From positions 1 through 31,463 of IMG/VR virus record IMGVR_UViG_3300001680_000205: a stretch of 31,463 bases of DNA; one strand, given 5' to 3'. Source of the DNA: a virus. This document shows positions 10,324-31,352 of this stretch, one piece after another. Every line of letters begins with the position of its first letter. Position 1 is the first letter of the stretch. Under the pieces are notes generated by a model. The model was not told where the DNA came from. It searched no databases and saw only the letters and a program-made list of their open reading frames with translations. The translations under genes and the position numbers were made by a program.

Positions 10324-10920
10324 GTGCCTGTTGAGACTCTAGTTAAGACGGACAGACTTGGTGCTGTCAACTCCATGTTACGTATGATTGGCGAATCATC
10401 AGTAGCAGACCTCGAAAGCCCCACGCGAAGTGATGTGGTAGCAGCAATAGAATTGCTTTACGAAGTTAGTAGAGAAATCCAATCTGAGGGTTGGTGGTTT
10501 AATAGGGAAACTATTAAGCTTACTCCCGACGTTGTTACTGGCGAAGTCCTTATTAATTCTGAGGTTTTATCAGTTGACAGGGTACTGTACTCCCCCGGTA
10601 AGGAGTACGTTGAGCGGGACGGTAAGCTGTACAATGTTAAAGACAATACTTATATATTTACAGATTCATATGTTGAGTTGATAGTTACTTATCAGTTTGA
10701 ATTTGAAAAACTACCAGAGGTTGTTCGTAAAGCTATCACCTCCAGGGCAACTAGATTCCTGTGCGAAGCCAGGGTGCTTGATATTAGCCTCGCCAAGATC
10801 CTCTCACAAGATGAGCTTATCAACAGAGCCAAGCTCGAGGACGCTGAATTGTCTAACGGTGACTACAATGTGTTCAAGGGGCCTGACTTGTACAAACTGG
10901 TGAGCCCTTGGCACCGTTAA
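10324..10920 (+). CDS. Tail tubular protein A / adaptor (T7 gp11-like)
   Basis: A 198-aa protein (T7 gp11, 196 aa) that forms the ring joining portal to nozzle. T7-like features: AVNSMLRMIGESSV at 14-27 (T7 AVNDILASIGEPPV), a helix with REIQSEGWWFNRE near 49-61 (T7 RQIQSRGWTFN), a beta core, then the EKLPEVVRKAITSRATR helix near 126-143 and an acidic helix with NGDYNVFKG near the end (T7 GGYNMLDG). The start is GTG at 10324 with TAGGAG at 10312-10317. It is the first gene after the terminator. Its end overlaps the start of the gp12-like gene by 13 bases. Confidence 0.93.
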   Translation: MPVETLVKTDRLGAVNSMLRMIGESSVADLESPTRSDVVAAIELLYEVSREIQSEGWWFNRETIKLTPDVVTGEVLINSEVLSVDRVLYSPGKEYVERDGKLYNVKDNTYIFTDSYVELIVTYQFEFEKLPEVVRKAITSRATRFLCEARVLDISLAKILSQDELINRAKLEDAELSNGDYNVFKGPDLYKLVSPWHR

Positions 10921-13900
10921 TCAATAAGGAAATTGATTCGTTTCTGGGTGGTGTTTCGCAACAGCCCCCCGAAACCCGCCTGGATTCTCAGGTAGAAGAG
11001 TCCCTGAACTCTCTCCTAGATACAACTTCAGGAGCCATGAAGCGTCCCCCGCTCTTGTACAAGGCTAATATAAATTCCACTACAATGCGCGAGACAAATA
11101 CCCACATCATTGATAGGGACGAGAACGAAAACTACATTGTAAATGTGGAGAAGGGGGTTGCTGGTGTTTCAAATACCACGCTCAAGGTGTTGGATGCTTC
11201 CACCGGGTCTGAAATTAATATTATTGATGTAAGGAAAAACGATAAGCGTCTTAATTTTCTGGTAGTTGATAGTTGGTTAAATGGGACAGGCGCAACAAGC
11301 GATGCTTTGATACAAGTATCTGGGCACCGTGATAACCAGAACCCCGAAACCAATGAGTTTGGTCTTCTGTCTGAGTCCCTGACCGTTGAAGATACTATTA
11401 CATTTTCAGGAACTGGAGAGGCGTTCCTAGACGGAAACACTTTTAATATTGGTACAGTAAACGATTTCTCCAGTACATTTACACTTGCGGGCACTACGGT
11501 GGGTAATCCTGGGCCTGGGGCCGGGGGTGCTTCGTTTGTTGGATCTATAGTTGAAATTGTTACCCAGTGGTACAATGTGAAGGGTTGGGGTGGGGGTGCG
11601 GGGTCTGATGTAACCATACAACTTAACGATACTGAGACACTAGATGAAACTATCGCACCAGGGTACCCCGGAACGAATACTATTGTTATAAATGGTACAG
11701 GTGAAGTCACTATAGACGGCATCACCTTTACCGTGGAAAATCTTGGTTCTGGGATACTACGGCTTCACGGCACCACGGCACACGCATTTGTGAGCTCTTT
11801 CTTTACGCCCCTTGTCGGAAACATAACCCATGTAAATGGTGTAGCTGTGGTAGCGGACCTCCCTTCCAATTACATTTCAGATGTAGGCACTCCAAACAAG
11901 TCTATTCGTATGCTTACAATCGCAGACTCAACTTTCGTTGTTAATCGACTAAAGACAGTTGCCATGGGCGGGAGCCCACCGGCAGTTCCAAAAGATCGTG
12001 TATGTATATCGTGTTCTGGGGGTGGTGCGCTTACCGCAAGCGGGCAAGTCTTCGCGGAGACAGCCGTATCGGGGTCTGACGCTGATGAACCGAAGGCTTT
12101 GGAAGGGGTTAGGTGGAGTAACCCCATCCCCCCAGCCATCGTCTCCGCCATCACGCCCGGCAATACATCGAATGATAAACAGTCTCTTCAACAAATACAT
12201 GTGACGCTTGTCGCGCTCGCCCACTATGAAGAGATATTCACAGGCAGCTCCCCCTATAATGGACAAACTCTTTTTCATCCCATTGAGCTATACTGGGAAG
12301 AGCTAACTTTAGCTCAGAATAATCTAAACGCTCCTCACTTCAGGGGTAATACTGGGTGGGATTGGTTCTCTCCTGGGCTTCCACCGAACTCGATACCAGG
12401 GACGATAGCTAGTGACGAGGCTCAGTCTAATTTTATTATCGGTGAATACACAAAGGGGGATAATGTCCACCCCGCTTCGGTTGGTGGTGGTATAACTCCC
12501 GTCACGGTCCCAGACCGCGAACGCATAGATTTCAACAAGGGTGCTGATAGCTTGGTGGTCGTACACAACTGGAACGGTCCATCAGACGTATCCAAACTCC
12601 CCGCTAAGTGTGTCGATGGTTTCGTAACAAAGATTGTTGGGGACGCGGAAGTAGAAGCAGATGAGTATTATCTTAAGTTCTCCGAAAAAGACAGCGCATG
12701 GATTGAATCTCTAGCGGAAGCAACTACAGACAACACACCTCTAGATAGTTCTTTTGATGTCTACACGATGCCCCATGTCCTTAAACGGAGAGTTGCTACT
12801 AACGATTTCCATGAAGACCATTTTCAAAACCTAGCAGAAGGGGTTATTTACTTCACGTTCGGCCCAGAGAACTGGGCTTCTAGAACAGTGGGGGATGAGG
12901 TCATGTCCCCAGAACCCTCGTTCGTTGGGCAGAACCTAAATGATGTTGTCTTGTACAAAGACAGGCTCACGCTTCTAAGCAGGGACTCGGCTGTATTCAG
13001 TGAGGTTCGGGAGCCTTTAAACTTCTGGCCCACCTCCATCATGGCTTTTGTAGACTCTGACCCCATTGATGTGCAGGCTGCTACAACCACAGACGGTGTA
13101 AGCAACTTCCATAGTGGTGTAGCTACTGAAGCTGGCTTGCTGTTGTTTACAGACTCAGGACAGTTCCTAGCCAGGTCTGGTTTCCAAGACCCATTCACCT
13201 CGAGAACTGTGCATATTGACCAGATTTCTCGGTACCAGTCTGAGAACATATCCAAGCCTGCGTTCATTGGTTCCAGGGTGTACTGGGTAACTGAACAGGG
13301 AGTTAACTCTAAAGTCTGGGAGTACATCGTAACGTCTGCTTCGGGTGGGGGAAGCTTTTCGGGCTCTGCGACAGAGATTACTGGGCACGTTCCTAGGTAC
13401 TTACCTAGAAACATCTACAAGATTACTGGGAATGACAACGAAAACATTGTGTGTTTCTTTTCCAGGGACGAGGCCGAGACAATATATGTGTACCAGTACC
13501 TATTTTCTGGCAATAACAGGCTCCAGTCTGCTTGGAGCAAGTGGACATTCGACCAAGATATTGTTAACGGGGGTTTCATAGATAGGAACCTACACCTGTT
13601 GATGGACAGAACCGATGTCTTCCACGGTCCATCAACAACCCTAGAGTACCTTCCTCCCAGGATGAGTGATCCAAACATCGATGATTCCCCGATAGCTGAT
13701 ATGCCTGTGTACTTGGATCATAGGTCTCAATACACAGTTACCGATGTCCTCCACCAAAACCCAAGTGGGCTGCACCAACTAGTAGCGGGCTCTCCCGCAT
13801 GGTTTGATGAAATTGTCTTGCCTTACCCGGTTCCCAGAGACCCGGATAACACGGCTCTTATACACCCAGACATGAGGATTCTCATGGGTGGAACCACTGA

Positions 13901-23173: not shown

Positions 23174-23809
23174 ATGGCCACTCAGACAACAGCCACATTT
23201 GTAGGCACTAACCAGTTTCTTATCTCATTCCCATTTCTAGACCCAACTCACATAGAGGTTAAACTAAATAATGTCGTCAAGGTTCTGGACGTTGATTATA
23301 GATTAGACACAGCACCAAGCAGTGTTGTATTTTTAAGCCCAGTGACATTGGTGAATGGTGACGTTATTGTCATAACAAGAATCACACAGACCGCCACACC
23401 AATGGTAGACTGGCCTAGCCAAACTGCAATTGGTGGTTCTGGTTTGGACACAACAACGAAACAACCGATATACGCAATTGAAGAGCATAGAGACAGAGCA
23501 GGCGAGGCCCTGGCCCAGGAAGTTATTGATCGTGACGCTGCCCTGGCCCAGGAAGTTATTGATCGTGACGCTGCGGTTACAGCAGAAACAAATCGCGCTA
23601 TTGCAGCAGAGTTGACCAAGGAACCACTCCTTAGAGATTCCAGTGTTGGTCAGAGAAGTGCGTTTTCACCGCCCACCAATACACCCGCCTCACATGGTGA
23701 TATTATTTGGTCTTCGATACCATTCGTAAATAGCCCCCTTGGTTGGGTCTGTTACTCTTCTTCGCCTGGCCCCGTAACTCTGTGGAGAAGTTTTGGATCT
23801 GGGCCATGA
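23174..23809 (+). CDS. Short tail fibre / fibre adaptor (T7 gp17 N-terminal domain)
   Basis: Only 211 aa against 553 in T7 gp17. Residues 1-95 form the T7-type virion-attachment domain: an F-L-I-S-F-P-F-L start (T7 F-N-I-P-F), V-K-L-x-N-x-V-K-V-L-x-x-D-Y-R-L (T7 V-L-T-I-N-T-D-Y-R-F) and an I-x-R-I-T-Q strand before a DWPSQT turn. Residues 105-150 are an alpha-helical, coiled-coil-like stalk with an exact 11-residue duplication (LAQEVIDRDAA twice). The C-terminal 50 residues end in a GWVC...P-x-x-L-W-R-S-F-G motif, common as a closing unit in phage structural proteins. There is no receptor-binding tip of usual size, so another protein may supply host recognition. ATG follows the gp16-like stop directly. 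Confidence 0.88.
   Translation: MATQTTATFVGTNQFLISFPFLDPTHIEVKLNNVVKVLDVDYRLDTAPSSVVFLSPVTLVNGDVIVITRITQTATPMVDWPSQTAIGGSGLDTTTKQPIYAIEEHRDRAGEALAQEVIDRDAALAQEVIDRDAAVTAETNRAIAAELTKEPLLRDSSVGQRSAFSPPTNTPASHGDIIWSSIPFVNSPLGWVCYSSSPGPVTLWRSFGSGP
23507..23572 (+). repeat. Exact 33-bp tandem duplication in the tail fibre gene
   Basis: Two identical copies, 23507-23539 and 23540-23572, each coding 11 residues (ALAQEVIDRDA). The lack of any silent difference implies a recent duplication. The 11-residue period fits a hendecad coiled coil, so the duplication lengthens the fibre stalk by one turn unit without disturbing register; the following VTAETNRAIAA looks like a third, diverged unit. Confidence 0.95.
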
Positions 23810-23855: not shown

Positions 23856-24167
23856 GTGCCTGTAGATGCAACACCCGAAAATCTTGTGGGTGCAGTTGTT
23901 GCGGCAATAACAGCCGCACTCGCTGGCCTAGGTCGATCACATATGAAAATAAGAGACAGACTAAAAACTTCAGAGGTAAGGTTGAATGCTGTGGAAAGCA
24001 AACTAAATAAAATTGAAGAAACGCGGGAAAGCGTAATACGTTTAGAGTGTTCTATGTTAGGTCTTGAAGACGATATGAAAAACTCAATACGCCGACAAGA
24101 GAGAATCCAGAAGACAATTACAAGAATAGAGCGTATGTTCAAGATGAATGGAGATAATGGTAAATGA
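23856..24167 (+). CDS. Membrane-anchored coiled-coil protein in lysis region
   Basis: A 103-aa protein from GTG 23856. Residues 10-28 (LVGAVVAAITAALAGLG) form a short hydrophobic segment, followed by a long charged helix (about 35-95) with coiled-coil character (EVRLNAVESKLNKIEETRE...). It follows the fibre gene after 46 bases, with TTGGAAA at 23842 as a weak ribosome site, and its stop overlaps the next start (ATGA). Position and topology suggest a lysis accessory or a virion/membrane protein; an alternative i-spanin is possible but the better spanin pair lies downstream. I do not recognise the family. Confidence 0.65.
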   Translation: MPVDATPENLVGAVVAAITAALAGLGRSHMKIRDRLKTSEVRLNAVESKLNKIEETRESVIRLECSMLGLEDDMKNSIRRQERIQKTITRIERMFKMNGDNGK

Positions 24168-24328
24168 TAGAATTTATTATGGCAAACAAAGATCAACTTG
24201 TGTCTATTATTATTGCATCGATGGCATTGGGTGGTCTTATCGTAAAGCTTACGCCAACAAAGGCAGACGATGCGTGGTTTAAAAAGATTTCAACATTCTT
24301 CGGTAGATTCTTTGGTGGGGGAGTGTGA
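24164..24328 (+). CDS. 54-aa membrane protein, holin candidate (gp17.5 position)
   Basis: A 54-aa product with one clear transmembrane helix (about residues 12-28: LVSIIIASMALGGLIVK), followed by a V-K-L-T-P-T-K-A-D-D-A-W-F-K-K segment. This TM plus L-T-P-T-K-x-D-D pattern is common in small phage proteins next to spanins that are called holins. T7 gp17.5 holin (67 aa, one or two TM) occupies the same place after the fibre. It is linked on both sides by 4-base overlaps: ATGA with the coiled-coil gene and GTGA with the i-spanin. Function as the holin is inferred from context only. Confidence 0.72.
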   Translation: MIEFIMANKDQLVSIIIASMALGGLIVKLTPTKADDAWFKKISTFFGRFFGGGV

Positions 24329-24558
24329 CAACAACCGTTCTTGTAATAGGTATAATTTTCCTTAACCTTATGATGATTAGGCAGATAAATAAACTCTCTA
24401 GGGAGGTAGGTTCAAGTGAAGCGTTTCTTAAAAAGCAGAAAAAATTCTTCAAGAAAGAGGGTAGGATTCAAGAGGTTATTGCCAAGCCTACTCCTAGGTT
24501 TGATAAGTTGGCAGTTATTGTTGACAGGATGCGCGAGCCTGAGGGGAAAAACAATTGA
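24325..24558 (+). CDS. Rz: Putative i-spanin (Rz-like)
   Basis: A 77-aa protein from GTG 24325, overlapping the previous stop (GTGA). It has an N-terminal signal-anchor (TVLVIGIIFLNLMMI at 4-18) and then a charged helical region with many Lys/Glu, as expected for an inner-membrane spanin with a periplasmic coiled coil. It is short for Rz (T7 gp18.5 is 143 aa). The main support is architecture: an o-spanin reading frame begins inside this gene in the +1 frame, exactly the lambda Rz/Rz1 arrangement. Together they would fuse inner and outer membranes at the last step of lysis. Confidence 0.72.
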   Translation: MTTTVLVIGIIFLNLMMIRQINKLSREVGSSEAFLKKQKKFFKKEGRIQEVIAKPTPRFDKLAVIVDRMREPEGKNN

Positions 24559-24715
24559 GCTTAGCCAACCCCAGGTGCCACCTTGTCCCGTCCCTGACGA
24601 ATATGTTTCAGATGAGTTGTACTATATTTGGGCTAAATACCCTTCAACGTATGACTTTGTTGCGCGCCTTGTTGTCCATTGCGAGGCGATAGATATACTA
24701 AGAGAGGACTATTGA
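24416..24715 (+). CDS. Rz1: o-spanin lipoprotein (Rz1-like), overlapping Rz
   Basis: A 100-aa outer-membrane lipoprotein. The first 20 residues are strongly basic, followed by a hydrophobic core (LLPSLLLGLISWQLLL) and a lipobox LLTGC with Cys39 as lipidated residue; mature sequence starts CASLRG. T7 gp18.7 has the same layout (basic N-terminus, then ISGCAS). The mature part begins with a Pro-rich stretch (QPQVPPCPVP), typical of Rz1, and contains two further cysteines. It starts at GTG 24416 with GGGAGGT at 24401-24407 as a good ribosome site and overlaps the i-spanin gene by 143 bases in the +1 frame. Pairing with the i-spanin is likely. Confidence 0.85.
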   Translation: MKRFLKSRKNSSRKRVGFKRLLPSLLLGLISWQLLLTGCASLRGKTIELSQPQVPPCPVPDEYVSDELYYIWAKYPSTYDFVARLVVHCEAIDILREDY

Positions 24716-24716
24716 A

Positions 24717-25001
24717 ATGGCAAGTGAAGTTAAAAGACTGGGGGAGCTACACAATATACTCACGGAAGAATTTATTGACCAAGTTGTTAATGGAACTTCT
24801 GTTAAAGTGGAGACTAAGACTGGGTTTGTGGTAAAGAAGGTTAGTCCTGGCGCATCTCTTCTCAATGCAGCTAGGCAGTTCCTTAAGGACAACAATATAG
24901 AAGTTGATCCTACTCGACCCTCTAGGTCTGTATCAAAACTAACTAAATCACTCGAAAATGACGAACACTACGACCCGGATCTCCCTGAATTTAATCAATG
25001 A
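24717..25001 (+). CDS. terS: Terminase small subunit (T7 gp18-like)
   Basis: A 94-aa DNA maturase subunit that recognises the concatemer and recruits the large subunit. The block SLLNAARQFLKDNNIEVD at 51-68 corresponds to the T7 gp18 S-P-Q-L-Y-N-A-I-N-K-L-L region and is typical of small terminases of T7-like phages. An N-terminal helix (VKRLGELHNILTEEFIDQVV) precedes it. The C-terminus is acidic. It starts one base after the o-spanin stop, and its stop overlaps the large terminase start (ATGA), fitting equal production of the two subunits. In T7 the spanins lie between genes 18 and 19; here they come before 18. Confidence 0.87.
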   Translation: MASEVKRLGELHNILTEEFIDQVVNGTSVKVETKTGFVVKKVSPGASLLNAARQFLKDNNIEVDPTRPSRSVSKLTKSLENDEHYDPDLPEFNQ

Positions 25002-26716
25002 AAACAACCGAAGAAAGGGCAAGGGAGGACTTCAAGGTTTTCCTTTGGTTGGTATGGAAGTTCTTAAATCTTCCAGAACCAACACCATTGCAGTACGACA
25101 TAGCGGAGTTCCTACAGGGCAACGCTGGTAAGCGTAAGGTTATACAGGCTTTCCGTGGTATAGGTAAAAGCTATATCACATCAGCCTATGTAATCTGGAG
25201 GCTGTTCAAAGATCCCGAAGAGAACATACTGGTAGTGTCAGCGAGTAAAGATAGATCGGATGCGTTTAGTAGATTCACAAAGATGGTGATCCATGAAATG
25301 CCACTCGTTAAACATCTTGAGCCCCGGCACGGCCACGGGTTTGATAGTATTGAAAAGTTTACCGTTGGAACTGCTTCAGTGTCTCAAAGTCCGAGTGTTA
25401 AATCGGTAGGTCTTTACGGAATGATCACAGGCACTCGAGCCGACGTTATCGTTGCTGATGATGTTGAAGTGCCTAACAATAGTGAAACTGCCACACAAAG
25501 GGAAAAACTGTCTGAGCGTGTTAAGGAGTTTGCAGCAATACTTAAACCAGAAGATGAATCTGGTGAGTCTAAACATGAAGTTATATTCCTTGGGACACCT
25601 CAGAATGAAGACAGTCTGTACAATAAGCTGCCATCCAGGGGGTATATAGTTAGAAATTGGCCAGCCAGAGTTCCATCTGAATCACAACTTCATAAATATA
25701 ATGACTGTCTCACACCTACAATTCACGAACGGTCACTTAAGGGCGAGACTGAGTGGGGCGAGCCAACAGATACCCGATTTGATGAGATTGAATTGCAGGA
25801 GAGGGAGGGTGAGTACGGAAGAACTGGCTTCTCTCTGCAATTTATGTTGGACACTGCCCTGTCTGACATGGACAGATACCCACTTAAGTGCCGAGATATG
25901 ATTGTATTCGACACAGACTGTGACATTGCCCCCGAAAAGATGGTCTGGGGGTCTAGTCAACAGCAGATTATCAACGATATACCCATGATTGGACTGCCAG
26001 GAGACAGATTCCACACCCGAATGGAGGTTGATGGTGAGAAATGGTTGTCTTATAGCGGATCTGTGATGGCTGTAGACCCTTCGGGCAGGGGGAAGGACGA
26101 AACGGGCTATGTTGTAGTCAAGATGCTTCACGGTCAGTTGTTTGTTAGGAAGTGCGGCGGGTTTAGGGGGGGATACGACAACAAAACCCTTACCAAGCTA
26201 GCTCACATAGCTAAGGAAGAGAAGGTAGGTATGGTTATCGTTGAGCCTAACTTTGGTGACGGTATGTTCGTAGAGCTCTTCAAGCCGATCATGAGGGGTG
26301 TTCACCCATGCTCAATTGAAGATGCCCCTAGGTCCGTACATCAGAAGGAAGCTAGGATAATCAATGTCCTAGAACCACTACTGAATCAGCATAGGCTGAT
26401 ATTCGATAGGGAGATGCTGAAGAATGACGTAACGTACCAAGATGAAACTGACAATAATTATATCCATCGTAAACTTGTCCACCAACTCACCAGAATCACC
26501 AGGGACAGGGGTGCATTAAAACACGATGATAGGATTGACCCGCTCGCTATGGCTTGCCAGTATTGGGTGGATCAAATTGCGGTGAGTGTAGATGAGCAGA
26601 TAATGGAACACAGGACCGATCTCCTCGAGAAAGAGCTTGAGGAGTTCAAAGATCATGTATTTAATCTTAAGGGCCGACGAAAACAAAAGACTTGGCTCAC
26701 CCCTATGGGGATTTAG
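24998..26716 (+). CDS. terL: Terminase large subunit (T7 gp19-like)
   Basis: A 572-aa packaging motor (T7 gp19 is 586 aa). ATPase: Walker A FRGIGKS at 52-58 (T7 has the same QAFRGIGKS), Walker B VIVADD at 150-155, coupling motif FLGTPQ at 197-202. Nuclease: Asp360 in MAVDPSGRGKDE, Glu416 in VIVEPNFGDG, and Asp510/Asp511/Asp514 in HDDRIDPLA. All active-site residues appear intact. The C-terminus has a charged helix ending KTWLTPMGI, which probably contacts the portal. ATG 24998 overlaps the small subunit stop. In T7 the genome almost ends after this gene; here an exported-protein cassette follows after 11 bases. Confidence 0.97.
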   Translation: MKTTEERAREDFKVFLWLVWKFLNLPEPTPLQYDIAEFLQGNAGKRKVIQAFRGIGKSYITSAYVIWRLFKDPEENILVVSASKDRSDAFSRFTKMVIHEMPLVKHLEPRHGHGFDSIEKFTVGTASVSQSPSVKSVGLYGMITGTRADVIVADDVEVPNNSETATQREKLSERVKEFAAILKPEDESGESKHEVIFLGTPQNEDSLYNKLPSRGYIVRNWPARVPSESQLHKYNDCLTPTIHERSLKGETEWGEPTDTRFDEIELQEREGEYGRTGFSLQFMLDTALSDMDRYPLKCRDMIVFDTDCDIAPEKMVWGSSQQQIINDIPMIGLPGDRFHTRMEVDGEKWLSYSGSVMAVDPSGRGKDETGYVVVKMLHGQLFVRKCGGFRGGYDNKTLTKLAHIAKEEKVGMVIVEPNFGDGMFVELFKPIMRGVHPCSIEDAPRSVHQKEARIINVLEPLLNQHRLIFDREMLKNDVTYQDETDNNYIHRKLVHQLTRITRDRGALKHDDRIDPLAMACQYWVDQIAVSVDEQIMEHRTDLLEKELEEFKDHVFNLKGRRKQKTWLTPMGI

Positions 26717-26727
26717 GAAAGGTAACA

Positions 26728-27183
26728 ATGCGTAATAGTATTATTGGACTATTTGCAACAGCATTTGCTCTGTTGTCCTTGGTCCCCGGAAGTGCTTTGG
26801 GTGCGGCTGATCCTACAAAGCCTTTAATTTCAAATTCGTCAAGTATAGGAGCGAACTACGCCCCGAAATGCGTCAATCTAAGGGCCAGTGGCGGGAGGTG
26901 CTTTTGGTGGAACGCAATTAATAGTGCTGGAGCTTCCGCTACTTTTTCTCTTAGAGGCCGAACTAAGGTATGTATGAATCTCATCGGCACTCCAGTTGTT
27001 GAGGTTCAGATCAATGAAGTAATTGCGCCTGGATCTCCGGTTGTATCCATTGCACCCCCTGCCGCGATCCTAGACGGTACAGATTGTCTATTCTTGTACG
27101 CAGGAGTGTACTGGTTTGAAATCTCTACTGTATCTGGTACCGCAGGCGATCTAGTAATTTCGTTGGTGGAGGACTTGGACTAA
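26728..27183 (+). CDS. Exported four-cysteine beta-rich protein, unknown function
   Basis: A 151-aa protein with a clear Sec signal peptide: MRNS, hydrophobic core IIGLFATAFALLSLV, and a likely cleavage SALG|AADP after residue 25. The mature part is predicted from its pattern to be a beta-sandwich (alternating hydrophobic strands, few charges) with four Cys at 48, 58, 82 and 120, suitable for two disulfides in the periplasm or outside. I do not recognise a family. AGGAAAGG at 26715-26722 is the ribosome site before ATG 26728; a start further upstream at 26692 would overlap terL and bury the signal peptide, so it is rejected. First gene of the four-gene exported cassette. Confidence 0.8.
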   Translation: MRNSIIGLFATAFALLSLVPGSALGAADPTKPLISNSSSIGANYAPKCVNLRASGGRCFWWNAINSAGASATFSLRGRTKVCMNLIGTPVVEVQINEVIAPGSPVVSIAPPAAILDGTDCLFLYAGVYWFEISTVSGTAGDLVISLVEDLD

Positions 27184-27184
27184 A

Positions 27185-28924
27185 ATGTCTTTTATAAAAA
27201 TTCTTAAGTACACCGCTGCCCTAGCATCCGTGCTGGTGGCTGGTGCTGTGTACTCTGGATCGGCTACCAATCCTGTTTATAGCGGTAGCGGTGGATCTGT
27301 TGGCCCCTCCGGTGCCACTATGGTGACACAGAAAGACGGGGCAACGCAGGTTGGTTCTACAGCTATTATGGACTTCACGGGTAATGTTACTGTGACTCCA
27401 AGTGGAAATACCGCAACTGTCGATATTACTGGTGGTGGTGGCGGCGCGACAACCGAGACTTCTGGAGTGGTTCACCCCACCCCCGTTACTCCCAGTACCT
27501 TCATAGAAGACTTTGCTGTCGGTGGTGTTTCCAACGTGCCAGGTACGGAATTCTTCTTTGATACGTCTACTGGGATGCTCCACCTAAACCGAGCGGGGGC
27601 TGGGATCATAGTAGAGCCCGCCGCAGCCTTAGGTTCGGGGTTATTCCTTGGTGAAGCAAGTCAGGGGGGTACCGATGGTCTTACGATTGCGGTTGATAAT
27701 ACCGACTGGCCCTCGGGTCTAACATGTACCGTCGATTCGTCGGGTGTCTGGACGGGTACTGGGTGTGTGAGCTTTGGTTCCGCTGGTGCTGTTGGACAAA
27801 GCCTGATTCTCAGTGAAGCAGGCGGCAGTGAAACATTCACCCTTGAGACTGGTTCTGGTGATATGTTGGCTGACCAAACATGTACTTTAGGAGAATTTGG
27901 TGAAGTTGGTCCGACATGCTCTTTGTTCAATGCGTTTCGTGACCGTACTTTAACTGGGCTGCCTTCTTCGTCTACTAAGTCTGTTGGGGAAATCTGGCTT
28001 GAAGTAAACGAGACAGTTACTATTAGTGCGAGTGGTGTTCAACTTCCCAGTAATACAACAATGACTAACCAAGCTAAAGACACTGGGAATTGGAGTAACT
28101 ATCTGACATTTGATCGTATTGTTAATTGGCACGGTGTACCAACTGGGACACCACAATACGATCAATGTGTGACTGGGTTAACCCAAGGCAACAACGTATC
28201 TAACTGGTGGGATGCGAATACTTCCTCTGCCTTAAACTCAAATGTTCCTCCCATATGCACAAGCGAAGCCGCACTATATGTCGAACCTGCCTACCCCGTA
28301 CATGCCGCCTTCACCACAACATTTACTGGGAACGCATTTGACCCCACAACTCTGGTGTGGAATACGAACCCAGTAACTACAGACAACCGTACTGGATCTT
28401 ACCCAACGGCTGTTAAGATTACTGACGACGACGCTAACCGAACCGGTTCCGGGGGGCTCAGTCAAGTAGAGATATTTGATATTAGCCCCGGTCTGACCGG
28501 AACTACATACGAGATTACAGCTTCGATAGTAGACTTTGCCGGGGCAGGCCGCTGTGGAATAGCATTGTACGGTGGTACCTCGGGCCTTACTCTGTATCTG
28601 ATGGTAAGTACTTGGGCCGGTAATAATCTGCAAACACCGAGTGGTGGCCTTCTCACGCCGCTCAATGCCCCTTCAACCGCGACAACTAATATCACCGTAA
28701 CTGGGGCCGTTTCAGACGCGCTTGCTCTGTGGAGGACTAGGCCACAGACTCAAATCATAGACACCTGCTTCTGGGGGTTATCAGATGTGACCTTACTCCC
28801 CAATGTTGGAGGCCTCGCTGTAAACACTGGTGATGGTGCTTTCCCTGGTGGGGCCTCCGGGGCCTGGAACCCCGTGACATTTGCTGGCGGACGGATCACA
28901 TTAGCAATTAAGAGGCTCCCATAA
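27185..28924 (+). CDS. Exported Gly/Ser/Thr-rich protein with tail-fibre-like motifs
   Basis: A 579-aa protein. Residues 1-27 look like a Sec signal peptide (two Lys, core YTAALASVLVAGAVYS). Residues 48-88 carry a motif frequent in phage fibres and baseplate proteins: T-x-x-D-G-x...V-G-S-T-A-I-M-D-F-T-G-N-V-T-V-T-P-S-G-N-T-A-T-V-D-I, then a Gly5 hinge. Residues 151-194 and 206-245 are two similar units (L-x-L-x-E-A ... T-C-T ... G ... C), resembling the E-A-x-x-x-G-T-x-x-x-T-L-P units of marine phage fibres but with a Cys pair in each (181/194 and 233/245). Residues 365-579 resemble a jelly-roll binding domain. In all there are eight Cys (also 328, 358, 457, 528). ATG is one base after the previous stop, with GGTGGAGGA at 27166-27174. 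A surface adhesin-like or virion appendage role is likely; the exact role is unknown. Confidence 0.78.
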   Translation: MSFIKILKYTAALASVLVAGAVYSGSATNPVYSGSGGSVGPSGATMVTQKDGATQVGSTAIMDFTGNVTVTPSGNTATVDITGGGGGATTETSGVVHPTPVTPSTFIEDFAVGGVSNVPGTEFFFDTSTGMLHLNRAGAGIIVEPAAALGSGLFLGEASQGGTDGLTIAVDNTDWPSGLTCTVDSSGVWTGTGCVSFGSAGAVGQSLILSEAGGSETFTLETGSGDMLADQTCTLGEFGEVGPTCSLFNAFRDRTLTGLPSSSTKSVGEIWLEVNETVTISASGVQLPSNTTMTNQAKDTGNWSNYLTFDRIVNWHGVPTGTPQYDQCVTGLTQGNNVSNWWDANTSSALNSNVPPICTSEAALYVEPAYPVHAAFTTTFTGNAFDPTTLVWNTNPVTTDNRTGSYPTAVKITDDDANRTGSGGLSQVEIFDISPGLTGTTYEITASIVDFAGAGRCGIALYGGTSGLTLYLMVSTWAGNNLQTPSGGLLTPLNAPSTATTNITVTGAVSDALALWRTRPQTQIIDTCFWGLSDVTLLPNVGGLAVNTGDGAFPGGASGAWNPVTFAGGRITLAIKRLP

Positions 28925-31008
28925 TGAGTAGGCTACTAGTATCCGTTGTTGCCCTTTTGCTGTCAGCAAGCCTTGTCTCGGCTGCTGGTTACTCGACGGG
29001 TGGAATGCTCACTGCGTCGATCCGACAGAAGCCGCAGAACATGATTATCCTGATGTCAGAAGAAATGGGCACCACCACGATTGACGCATTCGAGTCAATC
29101 TACAGCCCGAACCATCCGTCACAAAACATCACCACGACATCGGCTGGAGTGGATTGGACAACCACCACTACAGATAGGACTCCCAACTTCAACAAACTAC
29201 TTCTTAATGGCATTTCATTCAGGGGTATGTGGGCAGGAAACCAGTGTGGTCCCACCCAGGCGATACTTGAATCTGGGCGCATGGATGGAGATCTTGCTGC
29301 CATGCAGCCACTCCCTGGTGGGCTAATGAGTATAAGGCTCCGGCTGGCATATGAAAATGGAGACTACCTGAGCTTTGCCGGTGGGCAGGGATTCTTAGGA
29401 GCAAACGAGAGCATTGTTCCTGCGGGTAGAACAGACCCAATTCATACCAACACCGTTCGATTCGACCACGGCTCTCGTGTCGTATCACATGGATTTGGCA
29501 CTCACTTCCCGATATGGAGAAATGGCCTCAATCCCGGCAACTTCGGCGCTAGTGGCGACGATCCGAGCGAATACTATACGCCCACAAATATCAATCTCCA
29601 GCAGGCGGTTGGCACATTTCAGGAAGATATAATCGACGACGCCGCTACAGCATTTACAGCTTGCGAATGGCCCGATAACCCGGGTGGGCTTCCAGAATGT
29701 GCTGCCCCTGGAGACCGTTTTGACTACTCATGGCGCGCAGGCACACGGTACTCCATTGAAGAGTTCTTGGAGAACGAGGTCTATGGTGGATTCGGTCCCA
29801 GTGCTAGCTACCTACACTCCTGGCTCGCGCCCCCGTTCATCATTACTTACAACTCAAGGATCGCCCACCCTGGAAAGATGCAACAGTTGTGGGGCATGAA
29901 CTTTCAGACAAAACATGATGGAACTACGCCGCTCACATACGAAGACCTCGACGAGTCTTTTAACGCCACTGTAATGGCAGGACTCGCGGGGTCTACCGGG
30001 CTGACCTATAGCCAGATTAGGTACTGGTGGGCAGGGGGTAACTTTCCACGACACGGAATAGCCACACAGTCCTTTCTCCCCCTCGTCGGGATCGCGATGC
30101 CCATTCAATGGTCATGCCCGCTAGGAGTGGGAGCATTCTTTGGATCACCGGCCACGCCAGCCGATTTCAACTGCCAAACCAATTCCGGTTGGGTAGAAAT
30201 AGACACCCAACTAGGCAGGTATCTTGACTATCTGGAACCTTCATTCGCCATCGGGAACACACTGATAATGATCACTGGAGACAATGCCGATTCGGGTCCG
30301 TACATGCCAGGCAGGGTTGGAATGGGATACTACGGGTTGGACGAACAACTCAATCCAGGGGTACCTACAGCCGGTAATTGTACAACTTTTGCCAATCCCA
30401 ATAATCAAGGTTTAGGTGGTAATGGTTGTGGTAGAAACAACCTATCGGAAAGTGGCATCAACGTCCCGTTCATTGTGGCGTATGGGCGCATACCCGAAGA
30501 AACCCGTGGTGGCGTATCGCACATTCGATTGACCTTCGCTGATCTCGCAGAGACTGTTGTCCATATCGCAACAAACGACACAACAGAAGGTGCCGACACC
30601 TATAGCGGGGATGGACGGAACTTCGCTGCGCTGCTCGATACAGGCGCACCCACAGGTCAGGCCCTTTTGATACCGAGCTTGTCGGGGTTCGGTACAACTC
30701 TGGGAGAAATCCCCGGGATCAGCGGCATGGCTGCGGCGGCTCTCCAGCCGACAGATGATGGTACCAATCTCTTTAGTTGGCGGCTGACACGCAGGAATGG
30801 GGAATGCGACCACTTGCAGAACCTGCTTGCAACGGACCCACACCTTGATTACCGGGGTGACCTGGGCGATCCGGCCTCTCCACAGTCCATTGCATACGCA
30901 ACCCTTTCTGCCGCAGTCATCGCACAGGGAGCAGGGCGCGGTGAAGGAATGGTGACAGGTGTTGTTCCTTGGCCTACCTTTCCGCGCCTGTACGGTTCGT
31001 GCCCGTGA
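28924..31008 (+). CDS. Exported sulfatase-fold protein with altered active site
   Basis: A 694-aa protein with a signal peptide (LLVSVVALLLSASLVSA|AG) and arylsulfatase/alkaline-phosphatase-fold signatures in order: PQNMIILMSEEMG at 37-49 (usual P-N-I-L-x-I-x-x-D-D-x-G), DRTPNFNKLLLNGISF at 84-99, CGPTQAILESGRM at 108-120 (usual C-x-P-S-R-x-x-x-L-T-G-R), PPFIITYNSRIAHP with His315, a QLGRYLDYLE helix at 429-438, NTLIMITGDNADSG with Asp453 and Asn454, ESGINVPFIV at 509-518, and a C-terminal NLLATDPHL. The Cys108 that would become formylglycine, Pro110, His315, Asp453 and Asn454 are kept. Changed are the N-terminal Asp pair (Glu46-Glu47), the Arg of the maturation motif (Gln112) and the usual G-K-W-H-L-G site (here GGQGFLG at 153-159). 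It may be a modified or inactive hydrolase, or a binding protein. Start overlaps the previous stop by one base. Confidence 0.85.
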   Translation: MSRLLVSVVALLLSASLVSAAGYSTGGMLTASIRQKPQNMIILMSEEMGTTTIDAFESIYSPNHPSQNITTTSAGVDWTTTTTDRTPNFNKLLLNGISFRGMWAGNQCGPTQAILESGRMDGDLAAMQPLPGGLMSIRLRLAYENGDYLSFAGGQGFLGANESIVPAGRTDPIHTNTVRFDHGSRVVSHGFGTHFPIWRNGLNPGNFGASGDDPSEYYTPTNINLQQAVGTFQEDIIDDAATAFTACEWPDNPGGLPECAAPGDRFDYSWRAGTRYSIEEFLENEVYGGFGPSASYLHSWLAPPFIITYNSRIAHPGKMQQLWGMNFQTKHDGTTPLTYEDLDESFNATVMAGLAGSTGLTYSQIRYWWAGGNFPRHGIATQSFLPLVGIAMPIQWSCPLGVGAFFGSPATPADFNCQTNSGWVEIDTQLGRYLDYLEPSFAIGNTLIMITGDNADSGPYMPGRVGMGYYGLDEQLNPGVPTAGNCTTFANPNNQGLGGNGCGRNNLSESGINVPFIVAYGRIPEETRGGVSHIRLTFADLAETVVHIATNDTTEGADTYSGDGRNFAALLDTGAPTGQALLIPSLSGFGTTLGEIPGISGMAAAALQPTDDGTNLFSWRLTRRNGECDHLQNLLATDPHLDYRGDLGDPASPQSIAYATLSAAVIAQGAGRGEGMVTGVVPWPTFPRLYGSCP

Positions 31009-31352
31009 AGAAAGGAATAGTCCTTGCGATAACCCTGCTGTTCTCAGGACACGCGCAGGGGACGGAACTGGAAGACATGACCAATACCCAACTGGCCTCT
31101 GAAGCCACACACACCCTGTGCATGATGAAGTTGCGCGAAGGCCCAGCCATTGCCCTCCATGACCGCTTCCGGCCCCTTGTCGACACTGAGGAGCAGTGGG
31201 ACAAGCTGGTCAGTGTGGTTCTGGAGGCATGGCACGTTGCCTGCTTCTCTCTACTTGGCACAACGGACAATCGAGAGGAGGACAACCAGATGCCTTGGGT
31301 TGACCCTGGACCCATATGCCAAAGCACAAAGCTGTCATCCCCAGGCCCTTAA
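31005..31352 (+). CDS. Small exported three-cysteine protein, unknown function
   Basis: A 115-aa protein from GTG 31005, overlapping the sulfatase-like stop (GTGA). It starts MKKGIVLAITLLFSGHAQG, a standard Sec signal peptide with probable cleavage after Gly19. The mature part is about 96 residues, helical, acidic, with Cys39, Cys80 and Cys105 and a Pro-rich tail. No ribosome site precedes it, so translation probably depends on coupling to the sulfatase-like gene, which suggests linked functions (a partner, chaperone or inhibitor is possible). No family is recognised. The next start follows 17 bases after its stop. Confidence 0.72.
   Translation: MKKGIVLAITLLFSGHAQGTELEDMTNTQLASEATHTLCMMKLREGPAIALHDRFRPLVDTEEQWDKLVSVVLEAWHVACFSLLGTTDNREEDNQMPWVDPGPICQSTKLSSPGP

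Follow-up and report, generated by a model that had tools for sequence, protein, structure and literature searches.

Four consecutive genes (A, B, C and D) at the end of a virus record with a T7-like late region form a cassette of proteins with predicted Sec-type signal peptides, whose strict order and coupling are retained in unrelated phages and whose middle pair, B and C, is exchanged. With a probability of about one half, the cassette is a late, exported and exchanged module that acts on variable, probably sulfated, glycans of the cell surface or matrix and is likely to aid the release of progeny.

Layout and spread of the cassette

The window (the whole stretch of DNA analysed) is a linear virus record of 31,463 bases from IMG/VR. 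Its late region is T7-like and ends with a short T7-type tail fibre gene (23174–23809, 211 aa), Rz/Rz1-like genes, terS and terL. The last of these lies directly 5' of the cassette and serves as the backbone marker. The features are as follows (signal peptides are predicted).

24998–26716, plus strand: terL, T7-type terminase large subunit (PHROG 38, E=6.5e-109; Pfam Terminase-T7_RNaseH-like)
26728–27183, plus strand: gene A, 151 aa; signal peptide at about residues 1–27; four conserved cysteines; constant partner
27185–28924, plus strand: gene B, 579 aa; signal peptide at about residues 1–24; conserved N-terminal module, the rest variable; exchanged partner
28924–31008, plus strand: gene C, 694 aa; signal peptide at about residues 1–20; S1 sulfatase fold; exchanged partner
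31005–31352, plus strand: gene D, 115 aa, GTG start; signal peptide at about residues 1–19; helical

The spacings terL-A, A-B, B-C and C-D are 11, 1, -1 and -4 bases, respectively. The stop of terL at 26716 is separated by 11 bases from the ATG of A at 26728, and a single base lies between the stop of A at 27183 and the ATG of B at 27185. B and C have one base in common within TAATG (28922–28926), and C overlaps with D by GTGA (31005–31008), D opening with GTG. The genes, their strand and the four junctions were re-derived from the sequence and agree in every point with those given by the earlier note; from the spacing we infer co-translation of A–D with terL. Searches of the window for RNA families, tRNAs, promoters and terminators gave nothing, or nothing above chance. 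In front of the cassette, promoter signals of the sigma-70 type (the search did not extend to promoters of phage RNA polymerases) and terminator signals were likewise not above chance.

Further carriers were found by scans with C and D. The scan with C alone returned 11 viral contigs, all of which contain D, and the overlap of C and D is present in 11 of 11 cases. In the close relative L002 (IMG/VR, terL 93% identical) and in the T7-like L052 all four genes follow terL in the order A-B-C-D, and in the T7-like L058 terL is followed by B-C-D with no A seen. In L046, L047 and L053 the complete set is located after the major capsid gene; the terminase of these contigs differs from the T7-like one and shows 44% identity to that of Pelagibacter phage Skadi. 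L057, whose capsid protein shares 69% identity with that of Planktothrix and Synechococcus phages, carries A-B-C-D before coiled-coil membrane genes, as L048 and L050 carry C-D. In L061 the complete set is followed by a coiled-coil gene and an M15 endolysin, so that the cassette adjoins lysis genes here and in L052. Homologues of A were found in L002, L046, L053, L052, L057 and L061. At least four phage backbones thus contain the ordered, overlapping cassette, which follows terL or the capsid gene or lies beside lysis genes. Co-occurrence in other phages, a check set by the earlier note, was thereby confirmed.

The cassette is rare. Of 34 T7-like terL loci that extend 1 kb or more past terL, one (L002) has it, so it is an accessory module outside the T7-like core, absent, as a moron-type element is, from most relatives at the same place. 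No relative of the cassette was detected in 50,697 phage records; in cultured phages no relatives of B and C were found, and A and D give chance matches only (E≥0.1). D, the most conserved part and the hallmark of the cassette, was found neither in plasmids nor in 84,980 prokaryote genomes searched by peptide pattern and tblastn, a procedure which misses relatives lacking the two patterns.

Export signals, the sulfatase fold and the orphan families

Signal peptides were evaluated by a home-made score combining the charge of the n-region, a 9-residue hydrophobic core and small residues at -3/-1. A–D of the window score 4.72–5.57; the best of the other 26 genes reaches 4.14, and most of the 26 have no candidate at all. 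If the four high scorers were placed at random among the 30 genes, they would occupy the last four positions with a probability of 3.6e-5. This ranking bears out the Sec-type signal peptides that the earlier note had assigned to all four proteins. A candidate signal peptide was recognized in each of the 35 cassette proteins of the window and ten further contigs, including five copies of D that have no basic residue before the core and score 3.5–4.2, similarly to the best non-cassette gene of the window. The proteins of the window possess neither a lipobox nor a twin-arginine (Tat) motif, i.e. they resemble neither lipoproteins nor Tat substrates.

Cysteine makes up 1.56% of the cassette proteins of the window and 0.23% of the products of its virion genes (approximately 7-fold, p=1e-8); in phage G002 the excess is 4-fold (p=2e-5). 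Four cysteines are present in every copy of A. Cys39 and Cys80 of D are both replaced in the related contigs L060 and L061 and both present in nine others, which is expected for a disulfide pair, and these residues are probably paired. The predicted signal peptides together with the cysteine content fit periplasmic or extracellular proteins, for which cleavage and export are likewise predictions.

The analysis supports the sulfatase fold of C proposed previously. All five members of the C family scanned match PF00884 of Pfam (best E=1.2e-15), with C of the window alone staying under the curated cut-off (21.6 vs 25 bits). Profile matches of the family in the PDB are sulfatases with E-values down to 2e-9. 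The AlphaFold model of C has low confidence (pLDDT 42) and was used for the fold only; its 50 best structure matches in the PDB are all sulfatases (E down to 2e-8). The cellular relatives, with about 25% identity, are sulfatases mostly from Verrucomicrobia, Planctomycetes and Bacteroidetes. In the tree, nine phage copies form a supported clade (100/99). C of L052 (4240–6033 of that contig) forms a long branch far from the other phage copies, and it may be a sulfatase recruited separately into the same slot.

Nine sites, which we take from sulfatase enzymology to be catalytic, were compared. They are nearly invariant across 45 cellular relatives, and most of the catalytic residues are kept in nine of the ten phage copies. 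The exception is the window, where five of the nine sites are changed (Asp-Asp to Glu-Glu, CxPxR to CGPTQ, Lys to Gln and Lys to Arg), so that the metal-ligand, Lys and His positions read Glu-Glu, Asp-Asn, Gln, Arg and His:

29059–29064, plus strand: Glu46-Glu47 where all 45 cellular relatives have the metal-binding Asp-Asp
29245–29259, plus strand: residues 108–112, CGPTQ, at the formylglycine motif CxPxR (Arg to Gln; all 45 cellular relatives and every other phage copy have Arg)
29386–29388, plus strand: Gln155 at the catalytic Lys of the GK motif (all 45 cellular relatives and every other phage copy have Lys)
30280–30285, plus strand: Asp453-Asn454, metal-binding pair, kept
30433–30435, plus strand: Arg504 at the second catalytic Lys (44 of the 45 cellular relatives and every other phage copy have Lys)

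The sites are retained in the other nine phage copies, except for Asp replaced by Glu in two of them; the L050 sequence stops short of the Asp pair. Of CxPxR, the Pro is shared by just three copies, L057, L058 and the window, and the full motif by L057 and L058 alone; the remaining phage copies, the window apart, have Cys and Arg without Pro. C of the window accordingly lacks both the CxPxR motif and the set of metal ligands and Lys of an active S1 sulfatase, the latter set being complete or nearly complete in the other copies. Eight phage records, the window among them, were searched for a formylglycine-generating enzyme, and none was detected. The claim of a sulfatase-type protein holds with regard to the fold, but five altered active-site residues out of nine make sulfate removal by the window copy doubtful. 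Because conservative substitutions are among them, the copy has likely, though not certainly, lost its activity. It is possible that this copy binds its ligand rather than cuts it.

For A, B and D no relative of family or structure was found in Pfam, PHROGs or the PDB, nor for B in INPHARED. D is predicted to be helical, with good confidence over residues 30–90, and its predicted structure has no match in the PDB. Alignment of A with B by hhalign superimposes only their signal peptides, and a relationship between domains of the two proteins was rejected. B of the window contains 13.5% Gly and 14.5% Thr. In the B family (279–719 aa) the N-terminal module is conserved and the remainder variable. 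The earlier note had described B as a Gly-rich, fibre-like protein. No profile match to fibre families was obtained for any of eight B proteins, nor for B against a fibre-like protein of the cassette-bearing phages G001 and G002. With databases and profile comparisons without a fibre relative, the likeness comes down to composition, and the identification of B as a fibre was judged unsupported.

Exchange of B and C between constant partners

The T7-like L002 and the unrelated L050 have D genes with 93.5% DNA identity over 277 bases, and the match covers almost exactly D, which indicates recent transfer. In G001 and G002 most structural genes are 92–98% identical, A 97% and D 89%, with 47% for B and 42% for C; the identity drops 60–90 residues into B and recovers within D. 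In L048 and L050 the neighbouring genes are 81–100% identical, D 81% and C 35%. For the window and L002 the values are 93% for terL, 72% for A, 55% for D, 35% for B and 29% for C, so that D has diverged there too. The tree of C conflicts with the backbones: L002 groups with L048 and L061, and L050 with L057. Since near-identical pairs keep D (and A, where present) best and differ in B and C, the latter two behave as an exchangeable pair.

Other regions of G002 (L144/L145) also deviate from G001. Genes of 840 and 1255 aa (10495–13017 and 27270–31037) are strongly different, and the capsid protein (36267–37229) is 69% identical, with 97% for the portal. Hence B-C is not the sole variable site of these phages.

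Proposed function and relation to known systems

In the proposed mechanism, the four co-expressed proteins would leave the cytoplasm by the Sec pathway late in infection and would act outside it, as a complex, on a variable surface or matrix glycan that is probably sulfated. C would be a sulfatase-type protein, an enzyme in most carriers and, in the window, perhaps no more than a glycan-binding descendant. B would be its variable partner, B and C setting the specificity and being exchanged together, and the constant A and D would serve to hold or anchor the complex. The gain would most likely come when infection ends: with the glycans trimmed or covered, the progeny could leave the dying cell and avoid binding to debris. 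Several findings speak against this function: the five altered sites of nine in C of the window, the phage records without a formylglycine-generating enzyme, the low scores of five D copies and the variability of other G001/G002 genes (capsid 69%). Of the earlier interpretation, the predicted exported cassette, its co-occurrence and the sulfatase fold are retained; B as a fibre is unsupported, and desulfation by C of the window is doubtful. More tentatively, the cassette may represent a new class of phage system, a secreted four-protein complex in which constant A and D would present an exchangeable binding protein and sulfatase (B and C) to the glycans of the cell surface as infection ends, the enzyme having in places turned into a binder.

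It is also conceivable, though we consider it unlikely, that the periplasm is where B, along with A, C and D, acquires its fold and disulfides before it is added to the virions at or after lysis as an extra receptor-binding or glycan-degrading appendage. A conserved N-terminal module with a variable remainder is a feature of receptor-binding proteins, the T7-type fibre of the window has just 211 aa and none was found in the L052 record. However, virions of caudoviruses are assembled in the cytoplasm, yet all four proteins carry export signals; the cysteine content of the cassette is unlike that of virion proteins, L053, L056 and L059 possess other fibre-like genes, and B has no fibre relative.

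Superinfection exclusion, in which the exported proteins would cover or change the receptor of the infected cell and thereby keep competing phages from adsorbing, appears somewhat more doubtful. It employs the same parts as the release function and differs from it mainly in timing, and the diversity of receptors would account for the exchange of B and C. The cassette follows the late genes, and the sequence before it shows neither promoter nor terminator signals above chance; this placement is late for exclusion. G001 and G002 have in common a fibre-like gene that is 92% alike, yet their B and C differ. A metabolic role, in which the sulfatase would free sulfate or sugar for the infected cell, is very improbable: the cellular relatives are indeed S1 sulfatases of polysaccharide-degrading bacteria, but the late position, three obligate orphan partners, the exchange of B with C and the altered active site of the window all contradict it. 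A chance cluster of unrelated genes, for which only the rarity among T7-like terL loci could be adduced, is refuted by co-occurrence across phages, with order and coupling unchanged in four or more backbones.

To our knowledge, tailed phages change the host exterior mainly by virion-borne spikes or by single exported proteins. Tail-spike depolymerases and deacetylases are virion proteins without signal peptides that act on host surface glycans. They resemble the cassette in the glycan target (proposed for the latter) and in the exchange of modules, a variable remainder being joined to a constant N-terminal part, whereas the cassette consists of four separate proteins with Sec signals. T5 Llp and conversion genes are single exported phage proteins changing the host surface. 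Export during infection (predicted for the cassette) and a possible block of adsorption are common to both; the cassette differs as a four-gene module with a sulfatase fold, an exchanged pair and no lipobox. S1 sulfatases (PF00884, alkaline phosphatase superfamily) have the same fold as C and are exported likewise, and most phage copies of C share their metal ligands, nucleophile Cys, Arg, Lys and His. Phage C proteins are distinguished by about 25% identity to them, a clade of their own, the usual replacement of Pro in CxPxR and the fixed partners A, B and D. A sulfatase fold is also encoded by giant viruses (Terrestrivirus, Satyrvirus, Yasminevirus and Tetraselmis virus 1), but their hosts are eukaryotes, the identity to C is about 10% and no A, B or D is known there. 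Pseudoalteromonas phages encode a formylglycine-generating enzyme, a phage link to sulfatase activity (PMC10232697). There only the activating enzyme is present, and none was found in the cassette-bearing records.

A narrow search of the open literature, outside subscription journals and weak as evidence of absence, found no description of an exported phage sulfatase cassette. The fold of C is already known; no description was found of the cassette, its pattern of spread and exchange or the families A, B and D. An exported operon that unrelated phages pass to one another, and in which constant partners flank a variable pair, is a sign of selection on a little-studied extracellular step of infection, and the cassette makes release and exclusion directly testable against each other. 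Phage sulfatase-type proteins, none of which was found in cultured phages here, may also serve as tools for sulfated polysaccharides.

Some minor observations concern the neighbouring fibre and lysis genes. The L052 record (G003, turned) contains no T7-type fibre between the gp16-like gene and terS (39449–44628). Overlapping Rz-like and Rz1-like genes (24325–24558 and 24416–24715) precede terS in the window, with a lipobox LLTGC in the latter, whose assignment is weak (PHROG 456, E=0.044). A small membrane and coiled-coil protein is encoded 3' of D in several carriers (L002 15264–15623, L052 6338–6676 and L061 6922–7245); the window encodes a protein of the same type before the Rz-like gene instead (23856–24167).
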